Source of the DNA: Chloroflexus aurantiacus J-10-fl | Lineage (GTDB): Bacteria > Chloroflexota > Chloroflexia > Chloroflexales > Chloroflexaceae | Direction of reading: 5' to 3' | DNA: 64,000 bases | Assembly: GCF_000018865.1 (NCBI RefSeq) | Contig: NC_010175.1 | Coordinates: 1,426,001-1,490,000 of the forward strand | Shown: piece after piece, positions 14,479-25,560 of the stretch | Position numbering within the stretch: position 1 is the first letter of the stretch | Layout: every line of letters starts with the position of its first letter | Program-made: the position numbers and the translations under genes | The notes under the pieces: generated by a model | What the model was told of the DNA's origin: nothing | The model's input: the letters and a program-made list of their open reading frames with translations, nothing else | The model's database searches: none

Positions 14479-16602
14479 TTATCCAATCACCCGCAAGTGG
14501 AGAAATAAATCGGGATACGTCAGATAGAAGCGCTGGAGGGAAGAAGCCTCTATCGACCATACCACGCAGTCGCTAAGTGCGCGCACGGTCAGGCGATAGG
14601 GTTCGCCACGCAGGGCAGATCGCATCCCAAAACAGTCACCACTTCGTTCGCTCTCACCGTCACGCATGGCGCTATAGTGGACACGACCGTGTACCAGCAA
14701 GTAGCCGGTTGTGCTCATCTCGCCGCGCCGGCAGAGTACCGTACCGGCTGCGACCGTATGCGGCGTGAAATCCAGTGCCAGATCGAGTAGCGTAGCCCAG
14801 GGCAATTGCCCCAGTGTTGATTGTTGCCAGAGCCAGTCAGCGCGGGCAAAAGCCTCTGCCAATCCCAGTTGCCCGGCCACTCTGGTAAACAGATCTGGAG
14901 TGATTTGTAAGAGTTGCACGTCACTATGAGCCACCATAGTACTGGTGCGAGGCTCGCCAATCAAAGCACCGCGTTCACCCAGACTATTGCCACGCCCCAG
15001 GAAGCGTACCGATTCGTTGCCGACAATAATCTCCACGACTCCGCGGTGAATCACGTATGCGCAACCGTCAGAAGCTTCACCTTCACGGGCAATCACCTGT
15101 CCTGCCGGATACGAGACGATAGTACATTGGTTTGCCAGGTTTACCCGCTCTGCGACCGGGAGGCGGGCAAAAAGTGGGCAGATGGTGAAGGTTTCAAAGC
15201 GTTGACGTTGTTCGTCGTCGTAGACAATTTCACCTATCCCGACAATATGACCGCTCCCGGCAACTTCCACCCGGTCGGCCAGTTCGTCGGTTACCGTGAA
15301 GTCCTGACGGCTGGTGTGAGCCAGTACCAGTCGCCGACTGCGTGTGCTAAGGGTACGGAGCAGGTGTTCAGTCGGAGTGGTATGAATGGCACCACCACCC
15401 ATATCGTGCACCAGAATTTCGACCCCATCGGCAAACTGACGGAGTTCGTCAAGCCGTTCGCTGCTCAGGTGTCCGGTTTGATGCAGGTGTTCCAGCCATG
15501 CTTCGTCGTACCGCATATCACCTGAATAACCAACACCGTTCACCCGCACCGCAATGGTGGGCACTGAATGAACTGCATAGGTTGCCGTAAAGTGATAGCC
15601 ATGCAGGTCGAGTGGTTGCCCAGGATCAAGCGGGTAGAAGTCAAACAGTTCGGCAACTGTTGCCGGGGGAAGATCGAGCATGACACCCAAAACGCGCAGC
15701 AACGAGCGATAGATCGGCTGGGCCGTCACCAGTTGCACCCGTTTACCACCAGTGAGAATCAATTCAGGTAGACCGGCAATGTGGTCTTCATGGAGGTGCG
15801 AGATGACTACCAGGTCGATTTGCCGTGGAGAGAGACCAAGATGGGCCAGTCGCACATTCAGATAGGCCGCGGCATCAAACAAGAGGGGTTGATTGTTGCA
15901 AAAATAGGCGAGAAAGCAGGTTGTGATGCCGGTCGGATCAAAACCATCACTCCCCCCGATGAATTGGAGTGTGATCATCTGGCGCACGAGCGGACGTGGT
16001 GGGGCCACCGTCAGTGGCTGGGCAATGCCGGTAATCGTCGCCGGAATGCGTGCAATGTCAACCCCATGTTCGGTAAAATGAAAAGCATCGTCGTGATACG
16101 TGATCTGTACCTCGCCGAGGTTGCCGCCACCGGTTTCCAGCGCCACAATGGTGACCATATCGTCAACGGTCGGTGCGCGGCCAAGTGGCGGAAAGAAAGC
16201 TACCGTCGCACATTCCTCTTTCAACCAGCTTCCCGGCCAGTCTTCCGGTGCTGAAGGGCCGTTGATCGTCTCTTGTAACAGGATGCGTAGTCGTTGAGCC
16301 TGGGCTTCCGTGGGCGTGATTAATGTAATCCGCTGTTGTCGACCGAAGAAACTGGCATAGATCAGAAACTCGACGCTGGCATAATTGATCCCGCGTCGCA
16401 CAAAGCCATGCGAACCCGGTTCACTCCCGGTCGGAGCATCAGGCGGTAGCAGAACATATTGCGGTGGCGTTAAGCCGTGCGCGAGCAGGAATTTCAGACT
16501 CTCCGGTGGACTGTTGACCTGGATATCGCCGGCAGTGGTCGTGACGACGTAGATGTCGTTGGGTAGACACCGTACTCGCTCCGTTGGTACTATCTTCTTC
16601 AT
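14479..16602 (-). CDS. Metallo-beta-lactamase-fold protein with two C-terminal cyclic-nucleotide-binding domains
   Basis: 707 residues. A strong AGGAGGAG precedes the ATG at 16602. Residues 1-200 form an unrecognised N-terminal region. The MBL fold (about 205-450) has the metal motif His269-x-His271-x-Asp273-His274, a later SGDMRYD and LAHTS. Two cNMP-binding domains follow. The first (about 470-590) keeps the phosphate cassette LGERGALIGEPRTSTM with the key Glu and Arg. The second (about 605-700) is shorter and lacks a clear cassette. This suggests a hydrolase or phosphodiesterase-like enzyme gated by cAMP/cGMP. A large cyclase fusion is encoded nearby (18946-23193), so a shared second messenger is possible. 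It is divergent from yebC. Confidence 0.82.
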   Translation of the reverse strand: MKKIVPTERVRCLPNDIYVVTTTAGDIQVNSPPESLKFLLAHGLTPPQYVLLPPDAPTGSEPGSHGFVRRGINYASVEFLIYASFFGRQQRITLITPTEAQAQRLRILLQETINGPSAPEDWPGSWLKEECATVAFFPPLGRAPTVDDMVTIVALETGGGNLGEVQITYHDDAFHFTEHGVDIARIPATITGIAQPLTVAPPRPLVRQMITLQFIGGSDGFDPTGITTCFLAYFCNNQPLLFDAAAYLNVRLAHLGLSPRQIDLVVISHLHEDHIAGLPELILTGGKRVQLVTAQPIYRSLLRVLGVMLDLPPATVAELFDFYPLDPGQPLDLHGYHFTATYAVHSVPTIAVRVNGVGYSGDMRYDEAWLEHLHQTGHLSSERLDELRQFADGVEILVHDMGGGAIHTTPTEHLLRTLSTRSRRLVLAHTSRQDFTVTDELADRVEVAGSGHIVGIGEIVYDDEQRQRFETFTICPLFARLPVAERVNLANQCTIVSYPAGQVIAREGEASDGCAYVIHRGVVEIIVGNESVRFLGRGNSLGERGALIGEPRTSTMVAHSDVQLLQITPDLFTRVAGQLGLAEAFARADWLWQQSTLGQLPWATLLDLALDFTPHTVAAGTVLCRRGEMSTTGYLLVHGRVHYSAMRDGESERSGDCFGMRSALRGEPYRLTVRALSDCVVWSIEASSLQRFYLTYPDLFLHLRVIG

Positions 16603-18027: not shown

Positions 18028-18093
18028 CATCCCGCGCTGCGTAACGCTGGGACAAGACACAGTTCCTGGTAGTGTTGATAGGTGTATTGCATT

Positions 18094-18774
18094 ATGGTTT
18101 CTCGTCGTCGCCCCGGTGCGCCCGCCGATTTTGAAGAGATTCAGCCCAACCTGTTTCTCATCCACAATCCGGCACTTGGCCCCGTGTTGCGCGGTGAAGG
18201 CGAACGGGAAGGGTTTCATTTTCGGCTGACCAGTTGGCGGCGGGAAGGTTTGCTTGCCCGCCTGGCGCAGCGTAGTTTCGTAACTCTGACGATTGCCGAC
18301 CGGATTGCGGCGCTGCCGGCTCCGCCATCAGTAGTTCCCGGTAGACTGCGCACGATTCCGGTGCAGGAAAAGCAACAGTTTAGTATCCTCGATCTGGCTG
18401 CGCCCCATGGCTGGCGCACCATTCAACCAGCCGCCGACAACACCGTAACCCTCCCTGAAGGGCAGATTGTGCGCCGTCGGCGCGGGCGCGGCCCGGCAGA
18501 CTATGTGCGGGTCACGGCAACCGGATGGCAGACCGTGCCTGATGATGAAGCGCTGTTAACGGCTTATGCGTTATTAATGCCTGAGCCGCGGTTGACACTC
18601 TCGCCAATTGGCAGTGGCTGGCTGTTGCCCGAACTGCCACTGCCAGCGCCCTATCGCCGGGTGCTGCATCAAATTGCTCAATCACATCCTGATGGCTGGT
18701 TCCTCGCCGATGCGTATGCCTGTGAGCTGGCTGAGCTGCTGTTACGCAAGCTGGGATTGACGTTGGTTCGTTGA
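18094..18774 (+). CDS. Conserved-looking protein of unknown function
   Basis: 226 residues from the ATG at 18094, 66 bp after ruvC in the same direction, so probably in the same transcript. The N-terminus is basic (MVSRRRPG). The chain is rich in Pro and Arg and contains repeated proline pairs, a basic RRRRGRGPADYVRVT segment around residue 145 and a C-terminal helix. No signal, membrane helix or catalytic motif is recognisable. The location next to yebC-ruvC is the only functional hint. Confidence 0.6.
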   Translation: MVSRRRPGAPADFEEIQPNLFLIHNPALGPVLRGEGEREGFHFRLTSWRREGLLARLAQRSFVTLTIADRIAALPAPPSVVPGRLRTIPVQEKQQFSILDLAAPHGWRTIQPAADNTVTLPEGQIVRRRRGRGPADYVRVTATGWQTVPDDEALLTAYALLMPEPRLTLSPIGSGWLLPELPLPAPYRRVLHQIAQSHPDGWFLADAYACELAELLLRKLGLTLVR

Positions 18775-18945
18775 CAGGGTTGACCTGGGTGACACCATCA
18801 TCGACTGTGCGGGTAGCACATACCTGCGCCTGGCGATCTATATGCCATAAGTGCCTGCGTTCCCTATCCACGTACCATAATTCAGTAGCGCCGCGTAGCC
18901 ATTTCCCCTATACTGAATGTAATCACCACTTACAGGAACAGCGCT

Positions 18946-21900
18946 ATGATGCAGGATAGTGGGTTGATGGCATACGTGGCCGCCGATAGGGTGGCCTGTG
19001 AGCTGAATGGCGCGCCACTGGCGACAGATGGGGTGGCGCTGATTGCCGACATCTCCGGGTTTACACCGCTCACTGAAGGGCTGGCCCAGGTGCTGGCGCC
19101 GGATCGTGGGGCCGAGGAGCTGACGCGGGCGCTGAATGGTGTCTTTGCGCCATTAATTGATGCCGCAGGCGCCTATGGCGGTCACGTGATTAAATTTGCC
19201 GGTGATGCTCTCATCGTCTTTTTTCCGCGCCGCCCCTCTGGCAGACGGGCTACCCTGCTCCGCTCTGCGGTTACGGCTGCGCATGCCATGCAGGCCGTCA
19301 TTAAACGCCACGGGCGTATCACGACCCCGGCAGGGGTATTTACGCTGACGATGAAGATCGGGATGGCGTATGGGCCGGTTTTGCGCATACGGTTGGGCGA
19401 TCCGGCGTATGGCTACGAGGATGTGATTGGCGGGGCGACGCTGGATCGCATGGCGGCAGCCGAGCATCACGCTCAGGCCGGCGAAGTGCTGCTTGATCCG
19501 GAATTGGTTCCGCTGAGCGGTCTTGTCATCACTGAGTGGCGTGATCGGTATGCCGTGCTGGCTCCCTTACCCGACCCACCGCGTCGCCGTCGCCTGTTGC
19601 ACCTTCAAACGGGCACGGCAGCCGAGCGTTTACGTCCATTTGTGCCACCGGAAGTGGCTGAGGCGGCGCTCAGCGGGCAGATGCATCCGGCAGAGTTAAA
19701 GCCGGTGGTGAGTGTCTTTGTGCGCTTTACCGGTATTACGTATGAAGATGCGTCGGCTGCGCACCAGTTGGAGCGCTACTTCAGTACCGTCCAGCAGATT
19801 GCTGCGCGCTATGGTGGCCGGGTGAATCGATTGATTACCGGCGATAAGGGGAGTGTCCTGCATCTTATCTACGGTGCACCGCGTGCGCTTGAGTCGTGCG
19901 AACAGCGGGCGGCGTTATCTGTGCTTGAATTATTGCACGCCGGCGAACGCTTGCCGTTCATTCGCGAGCAGCAGATCGGGATGGCTACCGGTCGGGTCTT
20001 TGCCGGCCCGGTGGGTTCGCCGACCCGGTGCGAGTACACTGTGATGGGGGATACGATCAATCTCTCGGCGCGCCTTATGCAACAGGCTGCCCCCGGTCAG
20101 ATCGTCATTGATCCAACACTGGCCGTTCGTCTGGGCAATCGCTTCGTCACGCAGATGCTCGGCACCGTTAAGCTCAAGGGCAAAGCGGAACCGGTGGCCT
20201 TGAGCGCATTAACCGGCGTGGCAATGTTATCCGAACAATCACCAGATACGACAGTGTACGGGCGGACGAGCGAACTGGCGCTGCTCCGCCAGCATATTGA
20301 ACGACTCCGGCAGGGATACGGGGGCAGTGTTCTGGTGGTCGGCGAGATGGGTATGGGGAAGACCCATCTCTTGCATGCGCTGAGCAGGTCACCGGTGCGG
20401 TGGATACAGGCAACTGCCGCTCCTTACGACCGGCTCCAAAGTGGTGCGCTGATTGGGCAGATGATCCGTTTGTTGATCCGTTTGCCTGATCTGGCCGATT
20501 TCTCCGCATTGGTGAGAGCGCTGCAACCATTGCCCGGCATCCATGCCCCCGATGCTGCGCTGATCCTGGCCAGCGTTCTCGGTGTTGCGCTGACCCCGGC
20601 TCAGATGCAACAACTGGCAATTATTGGTGGTGATGGTGTGCGCTGGCAACTTCTCACCATCTGCGAGCAATTAATGACCGCCATCACAACGACTGAACCG
20701 CTGGTAATTGCGTTAGATGATGTGCAGTGGGCTGATGCAACATCGCTGGCGGTTGTTCAGCATCTCGTCTCGCTCACGCCCCGCCAACCATTGCTGATCA
20801 TTCTGGTAAGCCGCTCATTTGATCATATCTCGTCATTTGCCCGCGCTGACATTACCCACACGATTGAATTGCAGCCTCTATCTTCAGAAGCGGCCTACGA
20901 GCTGGTGCGGGCAATTGCGCCAACGACCACACCAGATCAACAGGCAGTACTGGTTGAACGTGGCGGTGGGAGTCCGCTCTTCCTGGTCGAGCTGGCACGT
21001 GCTGCCGCAATGGGTGCCGCCCTGGAGACGCTGCCCGATACCGTGCAGGGATTGCTGCTCGCGCAGATTGATCAGCTACCGTCTGGGTTACGCCAGACGT
21101 TGCAGCAGGCGTCGGTGTTGGGGCGGCGATTTGATCCGATGATCCTGGCCCGCTTGAGTGGTCATCCAGATTGTGAACGTGATTTGCAGGAGCTGGTTGA
21201 ACGCGGTTTTCTGCTCCGTTCTGAACGTGAGTACCAGTTTCGCCATGGTCTGATTCAGGAGAGCGCATATAGTGCGCTCCTGTTTGCTCATCGGCGAGAT
21301 CGCCATCTGGCGGTGGCGCAGATTCTGGTTGAACAGGAACAGGGTCGGCTGGCCGAGCGGGCCGGGGTGTTGGCCGATCATTATGAACGGGCAGAAGCCT
21401 TTATCCCGGCAGCGTACTGGTATGCTCAGGCCGCCGATAATGCCCGGCTGATCGCAGCCAGTACCGATGCGTGTGATGGCTACCGGCGATCATTGAGCCT
21501 GCTTGAGCGGGCAGGGATTAGTGATGAGCGGCGTGCGAGTGTGTTGCTCAAGCTGGCGCAGGCGTCAATGGATAGCGGCGACTATCAGGCTGCCCAGCAG
21601 TTCTACGAACAGGCTTTTGCCACGTTCCCGGCAACACGCTCGCAACGTCGCCTGACGGTGCGTACCCCCTTCCGCCTGGGTGTTTACCCGCACGGCCCAA
21701 CCACCCTCGATCCTGGTTTGATCACCACGAGTGGCGATCAAGAGCTGGTGCGCGATCTGTTCGAGGGATTGGTCGAACTCGATCTCGATCTCAACGTCAT
21801 TCCGGCACTGGCTACACGCTGGAAGGTCGATAGTAGTGGTAAACGCTACACATTTCATCTGCGTCCGCAGGCATTGTGGAGCGATGGAGTGCCGCTTACC

Positions 21901-23193
21901 GCGCACGATGTCGTCTTTGCCTGGCAACGCAACCTCGCACCAACGACCGGATCGGCGCAGGCGCATATTCTTTTTGTGATTGCCGGTGCTGAAGCGGTAG
22001 CTCAGGGCGCCGACCCGGCCTCGTTGCAGGCGAGCGCCCTCGATGATCACACCGTACAGGTAACGTTGCACACGCCGACACCGCAGTTACCGTACATTCT
22101 GACCCATCCGGTGTGTATGCCGCTACCGCGCCATGCCATCGCTCGCTACGGAGCGACGTGGGCACACCCAGATCGGCTGGTGTGTAATGGGCCATTTCGG
22201 ATCAGCCGTACCCGAGCTGGTCACCCCCTTGCTCTGACCCAAAATCCTCACTATCACGGTTATCGACCGGGGAACCTTCAGCGCATCGAACTGGTCTACA
22301 CCGTCCCCGACCATCCGGCGTTCACCGCCGGTCAGATCGACTGGTTGCGCATCGAGGATCAACAGGCAGTGTCGGCGACTGCGAGCACGGTTGATCTGAT
22401 TGGACTTGCCACCTATTTTCTGCTGTTTAACTGTCGGCATCCGCTGCTGAGTCAGGCCGGTGCGCGACAGGCGCTCGCTCACTGTATTGATCCGGTGCAA
22501 TTGGTGGCAGAGGTGTGGGCCGGACATCAGTTGCCGGCTAGCGGTGGACTGATCCCACCGGGTATGCCCGGTCACACACCTACGCTTGGGCGTCCGCCGG
22601 TATCGGTGACGCCGACGCTACGAGCGCAGCTCACGCATACCGAACTTACATTAGCCGCGCTTGATGGCTTTCGCCACACACCGGAATGGCTGTGTAGCCA
22701 ATGGAAGCAGTACCTCGGATGTACGGTGCATCGGTGGAACGATCTCACACCCGATCAGCTCTTTGCTGCTCTTGCCAGCGGCGATCTGGCTATGGCTCTG
22801 CTAGGCTGGGAATTTGAATATCCCGATCCGCAGCCACTCTTGCACGGCCTGTTCCATTCACAGGGCGCACTGAACGTTGGCGGCTGGCAGGATGCAACCT
22901 ATGATGCGTTGATTGAGCAAGTCGCGCAGACAGATTTACCACAGCGTCGGCAGCTTTACCACACTGCCGAGCAGTTGCTGATGCAGGCAACCGTTGCGGT
23001 GCCGCTCTACTATCATCGGACAACTGGCGTCTTGCGCGCACCGTTTACGCTTGCCACCGCCTACCGACTGGTGCGTGGCGAACGGCCACGCCTCAAGTGG
23101 CTGGTGGCGGATCAATCTGCTCGTAACGCAGCAGACGTACCCGGCTCATCCTCATATATACCCAGGCGTCGTGCCGAATATGATCTACGGTAG
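18946..23193 (+). CDS. sAC-like cyclase-NTPase-TPR protein fused to a family 5 solute-binding domain
   Basis: 1415 residues; AGGAACAG precedes the ATG at 18946. Two class III nucleotide cyclase domains (about 25-200 and 250-425) come first. The first keeps both metal aspartates (Asp35 in ADISGFT, Asp87 in KFAGDA), while the second keeps the catalytic Asn372 and Arg376. A P-loop NTPase follows (GEMGMGKT at 466-473, then VIALDDVQWAD), with a helical/TPR part to about residue 890. This order matches soluble adenylyl cyclases. From about residue 906 to 1385 there is an OppA-type (SBP_bac_5) domain: TLDPGLITTSGDQELVRDLFEGL, LWSDGVPLTAHDVVFAWQR and an ALNVGGWQDATYDALI region. No signal peptide is present, so the binding domain is cytoplasmic. 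It probably makes cAMP in response to a bound ligand. Its 3' end overlaps the convergent gene by 9 bp. Confidence 0.88.
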   Translation: MMQDSGLMAYVAADRVACELNGAPLATDGVALIADISGFTPLTEGLAQVLAPDRGAEELTRALNGVFAPLIDAAGAYGGHVIKFAGDALIVFFPRRPSGRRATLLRSAVTAAHAMQAVIKRHGRITTPAGVFTLTMKIGMAYGPVLRIRLGDPAYGYEDVIGGATLDRMAAAEHHAQAGEVLLDPELVPLSGLVITEWRDRYAVLAPLPDPPRRRRLLHLQTGTAAERLRPFVPPEVAEAALSGQMHPAELKPVVSVFVRFTGITYEDASAAHQLERYFSTVQQIAARYGGRVNRLITGDKGSVLHLIYGAPRALESCEQRAALSVLELLHAGERLPFIREQQIGMATGRVFAGPVGSPTRCEYTVMGDTINLSARLMQQAAPGQIVIDPTLAVRLGNRFVTQMLGTVKLKGKAEPVALSALTGVAMLSEQSPDTTVYGRTSELALLRQHIERLRQGYGGSVLVVGEMGMGKTHLLHALSRSPVRWIQATAAPYDRLQSGALIGQMIRLLIRLPDLADFSALVRALQPLPGIHAPDAALILASVLGVALTPAQMQQLAIIGGDGVRWQLLTICEQLMTAITTTEPLVIALDDVQWADATSLAVVQHLVSLTPRQPLLIILVSRSFDHISSFARADITHTIELQPLSSEAAYELVRAIAPTTTPDQQAVLVERGGGSPLFLVELARAAAMGAALETLPDTVQGLLLAQIDQLPSGLRQTLQQASVLGRRFDPMILARLSGHPDCERDLQELVERGFLLRSEREYQFRHGLIQESAYSALLFAHRRDRHLAVAQILVEQEQGRLAERAGVLADHYERAEAFIPAAYWYAQAADNARLIAASTDACDGYRRSLSLLERAGISDERRASVLLKLAQASMDSGDYQAAQQFYEQAFATFPATRSQRRLTVRTPFRLGVYPHGPTTLDPGLITTSGDQELVRDLFEGLVELDLDLNVIPALATRWKVDSSGKRYTFHLRPQALWSDGVPLTAHDVVFAWQRNLAPTTGSAQAHILFVIAGAEAVAQGADPASLQASALDDHTVQVTLHTPTPQLPYILTHPVCMPLPRHAIARYGATWAHPDRLVCNGPFRISRTRAGHPLALTQNPHYHGYRPGNLQRIELVYTVPDHPAFTAGQIDWLRIEDQQAVSATASTVDLIGLATYFLLFNCRHPLLSQAGARQALAHCIDPVQLVAEVWAGHQLPASGGLIPPGMPGHTPTLGRPPVSVTPTLRAQLTHTELTLAALDGFRHTPEWLCSQWKQYLGCTVHRWNDLTPDQLFAALASGDLAMALLGWEFEYPDPQPLLHGLFHSQGALNVGGWQDATYDALIEQVAQTDLPQRRQLYHTAEQLLMQATVAVPLYYHRTTGVLRAPFTLATAYRLVRGERPRLKWLVADQSARNAADVPGSSSYIPRRRAEYDLR

Positions 23194-24483
23194 TGGAATG
23201 CACCCTCCGGTACCCGGAATCACCGTGTGGTCGGCATTGGCAACCAGCGCACAGAGGGCAGTCGCACCGGGCGGGCGATCTTTGATATTGTAGCCGGTGA
23301 ATGGTGCCGAACTGCCGTAGACAAACCAGTTGGCCGGATTCGCCGGTACACCGGCCTGGCTCTCGGTGACCGTGTTAAAGAAAAAGTGAATGTGGCGTCC
23401 GGGAAGCTGTGGTGTGTACCCGCTGGTGGTAAACGTGCAGAGGTATTGCGCATCGCTAATGGTGACATTCAGCGGCTGTACTCGATAGGTCGTAGTCGTC
23501 TGACGCAGAGTGAGCGGTACACGTACTCGCGGTGTCATAACACTCACGCCACTGAATGAGCTGTCAGGTGCCGAAGCAGCACTGTTGCCACTGAATTGAT
23601 TCCCGTCGATCAAAACAACGGTTGACCCGGTGGCAGTAGCGGCGCGCTCGATACGAATGGCACCGCCGCTGCCATTGGTGGCGACATTACCGGTAAAGCT
23701 GTTTGAGCGGAGAACAACGGTACCGGCATACATGATGATGCGCACCGCGCCACCACTTCCATTGAGAGCTTCATTGTTAGCAAACGAACTGTTCTCAATC
23801 ACAACGGTGCTGCCATCGCGTACCACAAGTTCAATCGCACCGCCACTCCCGGCCTGGTTTCGATTAAACCGACTATTGATGATGGTGAGATGCGAATTGC
23901 CGGTTAGCTCCAGCCTGATAGCCGCGCCATTGGCTACGCCTCCCTGCACCAGGTTGTCGTTGAATTCGAGATTCTCTATACGCATCCGGGCACCATTCGC
24001 CAGCGTACCCTGAATACCGACGCCACCGACAGTATTGACACTGTTCGTCAGATCGAGATTCTTGAGCACGACCGTCGCACCATTCAGATTGAAGGGCAAG
24101 ATATGGTTTCCCGAACCAAGGCTGAGTTCCGATCCTTGATCCGGGTCAAGGGTATAGCCAAGGCTGTACATGGTCGAAGAGTTCGGCTGGTCGTTGCCGC
24201 TTTCCTCACAGCGTGCCGTTGAGGAGTCATCGAAGTTGGGAACCCAGCCCCCTTCCAGGACGAGCGATTGGGTAATCGGGGCAATGCTATTACTGGAGCG
24301 AAAGCCAATCATGGCTGCGACCACATCACCTGGTTGGGCACGCGCCAACGCTTCGTCGAGATTACCACAGCCACCGGCGCCGTACAAACGAAAACCGGCC
24401 TGTGCAGTGACTGGTGGAAAACCGATGAGGAGCGCAATCAGGAGACCAATCAGCGCCATTCGTCGTCGATCAAACGATAGCAT
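23185..24483 (-). CDS. Secreted right-handed beta-helix repeat protein
   Basis: 432 residues from the ATG at 24483, preceded by GGGGAGG. Residues 1-30 form a signal peptide (MLSFDRRRM, hydrophobic core, cleavage near AQA). A cysteine-containing N-terminal part is followed by parallel beta-helix coils of 20-30 residues with the pattern I-N-S-x-F-x-x-N-x-A-x-x-G-S-G-G-A-I, recurring about five times (residues 180-310). Such polymorphic outer-membrane-like repeats build surface or adhesin proteins or polysaccharide-active enzymes. No catalytic motif is clear. The C-terminal 100 residues form another domain with two Cys. A tandem 15-bp repeat lies 73 bp upstream. Confidence 0.72.
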   Translation of the reverse strand: MLSFDRRRMALIGLLIALLIGFPPVTAQAGFRLYGAGGCGNLDEALARAQPGDVVAAMIGFRSSNSIAPITQSLVLEGGWVPNFDDSSTARCEESGNDQPNSSTMYSLGYTLDPDQGSELSLGSGNHILPFNLNGATVVLKNLDLTNSVNTVGGVGIQGTLANGARMRIENLEFNDNLVQGGVANGAAIRLELTGNSHLTIINSRFNRNQAGSGGAIELVVRDGSTVVIENSSFANNEALNGSGGAVRIIMYAGTVVLRSNSFTGNVATNGSGGAIRIERAATATGSTVVLIDGNQFSGNSAASAPDSSFSGVSVMTPRVRVPLTLRQTTTTYRVQPLNVTISDAQYLCTFTTSGYTPQLPGRHIHFFFNTVTESQAGVPANPANWFVYGSSAPFTGYNIKDRPPGATALCALVANADHTVIPGTGGCIPLP

Positions 24484-24813
24484 AGAGGTGCCTCCCCCTC
24501 GCAATGCTCTTGATACGCTGAGGGTGAGATGAAGAAGATGAGGGGCGAATCAAAGCATTTCAGGAATAGACATTTCAGGAATAGAATTGATGCTATTCTA
24601 GCATTAAAACACTGCCTTGCCTAGCACCTGTTACGTGTATAGCGTGCGTTAACAAGGGTGCTGGGCGATTGGCCGTACCGGTAGGGAGCACAGCCTTCTC
24701 ATGCTGTCAGGCTACGCATGCGGCGTATCAAACCACGTGGAGTAAGGCACTTCAATATGTTGCAACAGGCACTCTGTTCAGCTTTTGCGCATGGTTCTAT
24801 CCCCATCTCACCC
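24484..24813. other. Upstream region of the beta-helix gene with a tandem 15-bp repeat
   Basis: CATTTCAGGAATAGA occurs twice without a gap at 24556-24585, 73 bp upstream of the leftward start at 24483, a position suitable for an activator or repressor site. The remainder to 24813 shows no gene. Confidence 0.5.
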
Positions 24814-25560
24814 TCAGCCAACCGGTCGTGTGGCCACATACACGATCCGCGGCTCATCGGTGGTTGCCGGTAGCCACTGCGGGGTAAGCCGGTCAACTAA
24901 GACCAGGCCGCCGGCGTCCAGCGCAGCCGCAATCTCGCCTTCTTCCCACGGACGTTCACAGTGCGTCTCTTCACCGCGCCACCAGCGTTGACCTTCGCGA
25001 CGAAACCAGACAATGCGCCCGTAGGCGCGCTGTTGGGCCGGATCGAACGTGAGCCGGTTGATGACGATCAGATCACGGCCATCGAACGTAACCTGATCAT
25101 ATTCTTGCCACGAACGCAGACCGGCGGGCGTGTTTAAATCAAAGATAAAATGTCCACCCGGTCGTAATAAGGTGCCGGCCTGCCGGCAGACGGTAGCGAG
25201 GTCGGTATCATCAAGAAGCTGGTTGAGGCTGTCGAAGAGGCACGTACACAGATCGAAACTGGCCGGCGCCAGACGGGAATCGGATGGAAGTGAACGGATG
25301 TCGGCTTCGATCCATTCAACAGCTAACCCACGCTGCATTGCCTGGCTCTGGGCAATCCGCAGCATATCCGGCGAACGATCTACCCCAACCACAGTTGCTC
25401 CGCCGGCGGCAAACACGAGCGCAGCAGCACCGGTACCACAGGCGAGATCGAGTACCCGCTGTGGTCGGGGAAAGTGGTCAAGAATAGTATGGGCCAGGGT
25501 TGCGCCGAAGGTAGCCTGGCCGGCAGCGTGATAGATCGATGCGTATGCGCGATAATTCAT
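24814..25560 (-). CDS. Class I SAM-dependent methyltransferase
   Basis: 248 residues from the ATG at 25560 (GAAGGCA upstream). A longer reading from 25689 would run into the ABC-F gene and adds no domain sequence. The motif DLACGTG (residues 38-44) and VVGVDRSPDML, followed by WIEADIRSLP, form the SAM pocket. LLRPGGHFIFDLNTP is the post-motif strand. The C-terminal half (VTFDGRDLIVINRLTFD and on) is beta-rich, as in the Methyltransf_25 group with an added C-terminal lobe. Substrate unknown. It lies 58 bp after the ABC-F gene in the same direction, probably cotranscribed. Confidence 0.82.
   Translation of the reverse strand: MNYRAYASIYHAAGQATFGATLAHTILDHFPRPQRVLDLACGTGAAALVFAAGGATVVGVDRSPDMLRIAQSQAMQRGLAVEWIEADIRSLPSDSRLAPASFDLCTCLFDSLNQLLDDTDLATVCRQAGTLLRPGGHFIFDLNTPAGLRSWQEYDQVTFDGRDLIVINRLTFDPAQQRAYGRIVWFRREGQRWWRGEETHCERPWEEGEIAAALDAGGLVLVDRLTPQWLPATTDEPRIVYVATRPVG

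Follow-up and report, generated by a model that had tools for sequence, protein, structure and literature searches.

What does a solute-binding protein (SBP) domain of the oligopeptide-importer type do at the end of a nucleotide cyclase? The question is raised by a gene of Chloroflexus aurantiacus J-10-fl at 18946–23193 of the stretch analyzed here, i.e., a window of 64,000 nucleotides that corresponds to positions 1426001–1490000 of the single-contig genome (5,258,541 bases). Its product joins a tandem cyclase, a STAND-type nucleoside triphosphatase (NTPase), tetratricopeptide (TPR)-like helices and an SBP_bac_5 domain. With moderate confidence we read it as a predicted cytoplasmic ligand-gated adenylyl cyclase that follows the STAND plan of effector, switch and sensor. 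The gene and its parts are listed below, with the evidence in brackets (aa, amino acids; ORF, open reading frame; sAC, soluble adenylyl cyclase).

18946..23193, + strand: tandem cyclase – STAND NTPase – TPR – SBP_bac_5 gene, 1415 aa (ORF, Pfam, alignment with nine other complete orthologues)
19027..19560, + strand: predicted cyclase domain C1, residues 28–205, with D35/K83/D87 (sAC alignment, invariance in 10 of 10, fold)
19633..20220, + strand: predicted cyclase domain C2, residues 230–425, with T365/N372/R376 (sAC alignment, invariance in 10 of 10)
20254..21465, + strand: STAND-type NTPase, residues 437–840 (Pfam AAA_16; motif residues invariant in 10 of 10)
21466..21660, + strand: short TPR-like helical linker, residues 841–905 (weak TPR matches; helices in the model)
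21661..23115, + strand: SBP_bac_5 (OppA/MppA-type) domain without signal peptide, residues 906–1390 (Pfam, PDB search, fold, hydropathy)

The ORF begins with ATG and runs without interruption. Pfam recognized two Guanylate_cyc stretches in the protein, an AAA_16 match at residues 437–619 (3.4e-24), weak TPR matches around residues 841–905 that stayed under their Pfam cut-offs, and an SBP_bac_5 match in which residues 951–1308 correspond to profile positions 2–366 of 368 (2.8e-53, 181.8 bits against a cut-off of 32.4).

Class III cyclases of the sAC type are marked by a metal-binding Asp pair and a Lys in C1 and by Thr, Asn and Arg in C2. In a PDB sequence search human sAC matched both cyclase domains, and the HMMER alignment placed D35/K83/D87 and T365/N372/R376 on sAC D47/K95/D99 and T405/N412/R416, which we take, by number and role, to be the corresponding catalytic residues of sAC. 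All six were invariant in 10 of 10 aligned sequences, window protein included. The AlphaFold2 model of the cyclase pair (mean predicted local distance difference test score, pLDDT, 84.4) superposed on human sAC (4clp) with Z 38.8 and 2.9 Å over 405 residues. From catalytic residues and modeled fold, the window protein is predicted to be an sAC-like class III adenylyl cyclase pair. In the sequence alignment an Ala stands at the position of sAC Arg176, presumably a bicarbonate ligand and treated here as a feature of some members; bicarbonate control as in sAC is therefore not predicted. The whole genome gave 13 Guanylate_cyc matches, so that the window protein is one among several cyclases, and 16 cNMP_binding matches, i.e., candidate readers of cyclic AMP (cAMP) exist.

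The GRxxE signature is typical of the nucleotide-binding oligomerization domain (NOD) of STAND proteins. In the window protein it reads G439-R440-x-x-E443, together with Walker A (G466–K472), Walker B (D591-D592) and GxP (G675–P677), all of them invariant in 10 of 10 sequences, and the STAND part of the AlphaFold2 model is mostly helical. Excerpts of PMC6468293 describe the GxP motif and the STAND domain order, as well as an ADP-bound, autoinhibited resting state and an ATP-bound, multimerizing active state. With these motifs in its NTPase, the layout of effector, switch and sensor belongs to a known class, albeit with an unusual sensor.

This sensor was found by PDB sequence search with OppA as top match (residues 920–1360, 9.7e-48). 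In the AlphaFold2 model of residues 437–1390 (mean pLDDT 78.0; predicted template modeling score, pTM, 0.61), the SBP part superposed on DppE with bound murein tripeptide (8ay0) with Z 35.8 and 2.9 Å over 466 residues; next came OppA entries (Z up to 35.0) and MppA (3o9p, Z 34.9). We compared hydropathy (KD19, Kyte–Doolittle over 19 residues) before the SBP domain in fused and free proteins. Free SBPs reached at least 1.54 in 37 of 37 rows and had a lipobox-like motif in 29 of 37 (these rows represent 36 genes, since L154 and L178 are the same gene). The window protein had maxima of 1.17 in its first 60 residues and 0.24 over residues 840–920, and the whole-chain maximum of 1.67 was at residue 531 within the NTPase. 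Before the SBP of the 15 other fused proteins, 14 remained below 1.0 and one (L046) reached 1.78; their whole-chain maxima were 1.19–2.10. The export signal or lipobox expected of an ABC-transporter SBP was hence not found by KD19 before the SBP of the window protein, and the domain is most likely cytoplasmic, as predicted from sequence.

Is this chain a local accident? A scan of named genomes, which used cyclase patterns only, returned 46 loci; the surveys of fusion and partner described below covered Chloroflexota genomes and relatives. Nine complete orthologous ORFs (L080–L086, L088 and L109) cover residue 5–7 to residue 1378–1388 at 43–50% identity. At L087 (Oscillochloris sp. ZM17-4) both ends match with a run of N between them, and at L089 a contig end cuts the ORF after residue 511. 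Eleven loci carry the fusion, window included, and all are Chloroflexota by record title; hosts are Anaerolineae and Ardenticatenaceae metagenome-assembled genomes, Oscillochloris and others. Four of the loci recur below under genome names (L085 is G027, L086 is G051, L087 is G276 and L109 is G013). A twelfth case is represented in G035 by a C-terminal fragment that lies at the start of a contig. No SBP match was found in the ORF examined at the remaining loci of the 46, and many SBP-less relatives end in 400–500 residues of other C-terminal sequence. The fused gene was not found in seven other genomes of the same genus, where, among the matches listed, rows end at residue 893 or before. Ratios of nonsynonymous to synonymous substitution (dN/dS) were 0.07–0.20 in every part for the three pairs among L082, L084 and L088, with 0.08–0.15 in the SBP part; L080–L081 gave 0.10 for the cyclases and 0.26 for NOD–TPR, with dS saturated in the SBP part. 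The orthologues are thus under purifying selection. A chance fusion or assembly accident was rejected, given nine other complete fused orthologues and dN/dS of 0.07–0.26 where it was computable.

An earlier note, made from the letters of the window and their translations, had described an sAC-like layout of class III pair, P-loop NTPase and helical repeats, followed by a complete OppA-type binding domain. Pfam, sAC alignment and fold bear out the layout, and the full-length SBP_bac_5 match and the model bear out the binding domain. Its boundaries (residues 906–1385) were accurate, the SBP_bac_5 fold is present within them, and the signal peptide that it had found lacking is indeed absent by KD19. 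It had also suggested a look at other Chloroflexota for conservation of the architecture, which now stands on ten further distinct orthologues, nine of them complete; these nine are single ORFs, not pairs of split genes.

The same sensor also occurs behind other effectors. With a switch–TPR–SBP profile, 39 of 400 Chloroflexota genomes passed the threshold at up to two candidates scored per genome; matches spanned switch and SBP in eight of the 400, or in nine when G276 is counted through its gap, and the others passed by switch or SBP alone. Pfam analysis of the seven fused proteins without tandem cyclase gave BTAD + AAA_16 + SBP in G036 and G388, one cyclase + AAA_16 + SBP in G071, G101 and G152 (N-terminus cut by the contig start in G152), CHAT + cyclase-like + AAA_16 + SBP in G071, and AAA_16 + SBP without N-terminal effector, again in G071. 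In a first, quick SBP tree of 19 fused and 32 free rows, the fused/free division had a support of 91. For a more careful tree we dropped L082, L088 and 17 free rows and added 13 free rows; one branch now divided 17 fused from 28 free rows (two of them the same gene) with 95/94 support, and the split recurred in 93% of 200 bootstrap trees. Moreover, with the SBP of a single-cyclase protein as query (six candidates scored per genome), the eight best matches in 251 genomes, its own gene included, were all fused and ranked above the free SBPs among the matches listed. A quick NTPase tree (16 fused, 38 not) grouped the 10 tandem-cyclase proteins in one clade (100) and six others in another (98). 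With one SBP branch and two NTPase groups, the sensor domain looks like one lineage, and its joining to switches may have happened repeatedly.

The genes around these other sensors were compared as well. In G036 an SBP gene (SBP_bac_5 3.3e-99) and two BPD_transp_1 permease genes follow the BTAD – STAND – SBP gene at a distance of about 1 kb and in the same orientation, as one would expect if a regulator responded to an imported ligand. For the BTAD – STAND – SBP gene near the Opp-type importer (L042:4862-13793), the identity of its SBP domain with the importer's binding protein is only 29% over 346 positions. Behind two sensor genes of G071, and in the same orientation, stand very large ORFs whose repeats are of the secreted type, one with FG-GAP/PKD (2164 aa, open at the end of the stretch) and one with DUF11/PMP-like repeats (2018 aa); a pairing of sensor and secreted protein may thus be a wider theme. 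The respective STAND-SBP genes, directly before the large ORFs, are contained in L198:4232-13999 and L197:3-11016, both of G071. Typed neighbors at the third G071 locus (one), in G101 (one) and in G388 (two) were of other kinds.

The tandem-cyclase gene has a neighbor of its own, conserved tail-to-tail in 11 of 11 loci and overlooked in the earlier note:

23185..24504, – strand: convergent gene of a secreted, putatively β-helix-like protein, up to 439 aa (homologues in matching position and orientation at 10 other loci; co-occurrence)

Its stop overlaps the end of the cyclase gene by 9 bp, and its real start is probably an internal ATG. A homologue is found directly downstream on the opposite strand at 10 of 10 other loci (the L082 copy is cut by a contig end), with stop-to-stop distances between –46 and +72 bp. 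Other flanking ORFs were common to at most 4 of 11 loci, when we compared ORFs of at least 110 aa at E ≤1e-8 in flanks of up to 7 kb (shorter at contig ends) and excluded antisense ORFs inside both genes. Nine aligned homologues are 28–47% identical to the window partner, and a signal-like hydrophobic stretch occurs near the start in 10 of 10 partner proteins. The repeat pattern and weak PMP-repeat matches (below the cut-off in the window protein; in 2 of 6 tested) weakly suggest a β-helix-like fold. An NCBIfam scan of six of the 10 aligned partner proteins named none; four had no match and two had weak POMP-repeat matches, one of them also a weak rhombotarget A match. Six of the 10 carry a C-terminal domain of about 100 residues and four lack it; the Pfam scan of the window partner left the domain unnamed. 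This domain (window 23185–23490, – strand; L207, L213) also ends different, larger proteins in other Chloroflexota genomes. Four shorter partners (L080, L081, L085, L087) end in FLP[IL]V and a few mostly basic residues, which is perhaps a C-terminal anchoring or sorting signal.

We searched for the partner away from the sensor with a profile built from sensor-adjacent homologues, which distant versions could escape. Among 61 relatives, strong matches (E ≤1e-79) occurred in G000, G013, G027, G035 and G051, i.e., in just those five genomes where the sensor or a fragment of it is present. G010 has the C-terminal domain alone (1.3e-52), and weak matches (5e-14 to 5e-13) came from G016, G031, G038, G041 and a second place in G051. 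In the 400 Chloroflexota genomes (E 1e-20, four candidates per genome), the β-helix part was matched in G000, G027, G051 and G276, which are exactly the four genomes that have the tandem-cyclase sensor; seven other genomes matched the model from position 299–331 on, i.e., in the C-terminal domain only. Of the ten genomes with named loci, nine have their strong β-helix matches at the sensor. In the tenth, CFX1, one part lies at the sensor and the other at the end of another contig; these pieces cover model positions 4–302 and 284–430, the latter beside the sensor, and each ends with its contig. No exact overlap was found between the two contig ends. They are likely one broken gene, and a second β-helix gene in CFX1 was therefore set aside. 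Also, G426 contains the C-terminal domain alone, and G427, G429 and G431 gave weak matches elsewhere (9e-14 to 9e-13). We hence conclude that the partner is co-inherited with the tandem-cyclase sensor.

Sensor and partner are also absent together:

18763..24823, no strand assigned: presence/absence unit (about 190 bp instead at the matching place in the close Chloroflexus genome G006)

In G006 the order yebC – ruvC – orf230 – methyltransferase – ABC-F is as in the window and both genes are missing. Six other genomes of the genus have methyltransferase and ABC-F together, the ruvC side lying outside the stretch compared. The ABC-F gene beside the pair is shared by L109, and this points to a long-held position from which both genes were lost together, and less to a recent gain. 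No convincing repeats that would mark a mobile insertion were found at the ends of the unit, and the GC contents of the two genes (0.596 and 0.561) are close to the 0.574 of the window.

Two further genes lie upstream. The first, at 14479–16602 (– strand) and 2.3 kb from the cyclase gene, encodes a 707-aa protein with a metallo-β-lactamase fold and two cNMP-binding domains, possibly a cyclic-nucleotide-controlled hydrolase. A specific link to the sensor pair was rejected because G006 keeps this gene at the same place without the pair; no homologue was found in the 10 orthologue loci within flanks of up to 7 kb. The second, at 18082–18774 (+ strand) between ruvC and the cyclase gene, is a 230-aa ORF without Pfam match; its G006 homologue is 73% identical and occupies the same place.

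How might such a protein work? The domain architecture supports the design of a sensor tied to a cyclase that the earlier note had claimed. The SBP fold suggests a small peptide or another oligomer as ligand; an ordinary importer of the Opp/Dpp type would bring it into the cell, where it would bind the C-terminal SBP domain. Closure of the SBP lobes would free the NTPase from its ADP-bound resting state, and the ATP-bound form would rearrange or oligomerize and switch on the C1/C2 pair. The cAMP formed would act via the cyclic-nucleotide-binding proteins of the cell, and the secreted partner would most likely be the source of the signal, its capturer or a regulated surface output. Several points weigh against this scheme. 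The order of signaling events is borrowed from the STAND literature by analogy, and the model, with its pTM of 0.61, does not fix switch and SBP relative to each other. At the position of OppA Asp419 (E1291 in the window protein), seven of 10 orthologues have Asp or Glu and three have Ala, and a Leu aligns with OppA Arg413 in the window protein; the ligand might hence be something other than a peptide, and not the same one in every orthologue. Mean identities over the 10 orthologues are 0.67 for C1, 0.65 for C2, 0.53 for the NOD and 0.47 for both TPR and SBP, so that the SBP, at 47% like the TPRs, is among the least conserved parts compared with 65–67% in the cyclase domains. As the earlier note had claimed for the vicinity, no importer gene is among the seven window neighbors tested, and one has to go about 23 kb upstream to reach the closest SBP gene of the genome. 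Finally, it was not borne out that the fused NTPases form one clade, the quick NTPase tree needing two changes.

Other readings of the SBP domain have to be set beside this one. That it is exported or faces outward, which would make the protein a classical extracellular receptor, is highly improbable. The characterized transporter relatives of the domain are extracellular, as is well established, but here cyclase, NTPase and SBP share one chain, the window protein has no signal peptide or transmembrane-like segment before the SBP, and 14 of the 15 other fused proteins, all except L046, stayed below KD19 1.0 there. It is also unlikely that the domain has lost small-ligand binding and serves, as a folded platform for protein interactions, to dock the cyclase to a partner. 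Such a platform would fit the SBP as the most variable of the large domains, the variable Asp419 position and the lost Arg413, whereas the full-length fold, the low dN/dS and the recurrence of this SBP branch behind effectors of unrelated kinds, among them BTAD regulators of which one is near importer genes, argue for a retained binding function. Quite unlikely is a conflict or kin-recognition unit, i.e., a defense-like combination of STAND sensor, swappable effectors (cyclase, CHAT) and secreted surface protein with patchy spread. Presence is indeed patchy, as seen from the seven other genomes of the genus among the matches listed and from the joint absence in G006, one relative carries a CHAT effector, and excerpts of PMC7159879 report conflict systems with STAND and cyclic nucleoside monophosphate (cNMP) cyclase in multicellular bacteria including Chloroflexi. 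Against this, PADLOC-DB models gave only weak general similarity to Pycsar cyclases (best 6.6e-13), no mobile gene is among the seven neighbors tested, and the BTAD versions resemble regulators, with importer genes close to one of them.

We therefore keep the ligand-gated cyclase as the favored reading. Beyond it, we tentatively propose, as a possibility, that cytoplasmic SBPs serving STAND switches could form a new class of intracellular receptor with exchangeable outputs (cAMP synthesis, transcription, CHAT protease-like), and that the tandem-cyclase form could be a strict two-gene circuit, in which the secreted β-helix-like protein generates, presents or answers the sensed oligomer. If the favored reading is true, a STAND switch that uses an importer's binding domain in the cytoplasm as its sensor would provide a ligand-gated cyclase that is readily testable, since SBP domains often purify with their ligand bound, and the STAND class, whose effectors are of many kinds, would gain a new type of sensor. 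It also suggests what kind of signal may be sensed by the sAC-like cyclases of Chloroflexota, which are poorly understood. Moreover, because the sensor is so closely linked to a secreted protein, simple gene-removal tests could show whether signaling runs from surface to cytoplasm or back.

How does this protein compare with known systems? In sAC, as in the window protein, a P-loop NTPase and helices follow the cyclase pair. The window protein resembles human sAC (ADCY10) and the sAC-like cyclases of Chloroflexus in its tandem C1/C2, catalytic residues and fold; it differs by the Ala at sAC Arg176 and by an SBP domain where SBP-less relatives have another C-terminus of about 400–500 residues. 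Three sAC-like Chloroflexus cyclases were reportedly described by Kobayashi et al. in 2004, and the window gene may be one of them. Pycsar anti-phage cyclases consist of a cyclase gene and a gene for a cyclic-nucleotide-gated effector. At our locus the cyclase gave weak PycC matches, the convergent partner gave no PADLOC match and the ORF upstream no Pfam match. From OppA, DppE and MppA, with which it shares the fold and detectable sequence similarity along the domain, the window SBP is set apart by the lack of a signal peptide and of importer genes among the neighbors tested, and by its fusion to switch and enzyme.

With the STAND regulators MalT and PH0952, as far as excerpts of PMC6468293 describe them, our protein shares the NOD motifs and the order of NOD and helical arm or sensor with an effector at one end. 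Its chain ends in a two-lobed SBP and not in repeats only, and a cyclase pair serves as effector. System 4 of Kaur et al. 2020 (PMC7159879, in excerpts) likewise is a signaling chain with caspase or cNMP cyclase, in some members with a PBP domain; there this domain is extracellular behind transmembrane helices, whereas the window SBP is predicted to be cytoplasmic behind a STAND NTPase. The available portions of PMC7159879, PMC8195603 and PMC10907252 do not contain the term 'solute-binding', and we found no description of the SBP – STAND – cyclase architecture or of the two-gene unit in our searches of open-licence literature. A precedent is given by the transcription factors SgrR and DsvR, which according to excerpts of a preprint (PMC13060122) combine a helix-turn-helix (HTH) domain with SBP_bac5, i.e., an SBP on one chain with a cytoplasmic output domain. 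They have an HTH output and no NTPase switch, where the window protein has NTPase switch and cyclase. The SgrR family model matched its SBP part only (4.4e-08, 32 bits against a cut-off of 476), and no HTH was found in it by Pfam and family-model scans. The view of the earlier note that the design is not a described system hence stands for the combination, which appears new, and falls short for its parts, since the STAND plan of effector, switch and sensor is known and SgrR/DsvR are a precedent for a cytoplasmic SBP. STAND switches, sAC-like cyclases and cytoplasmic SBP sensors such as SgrR are each known; their combination, and the two-gene unit with a secreted partner, look new.

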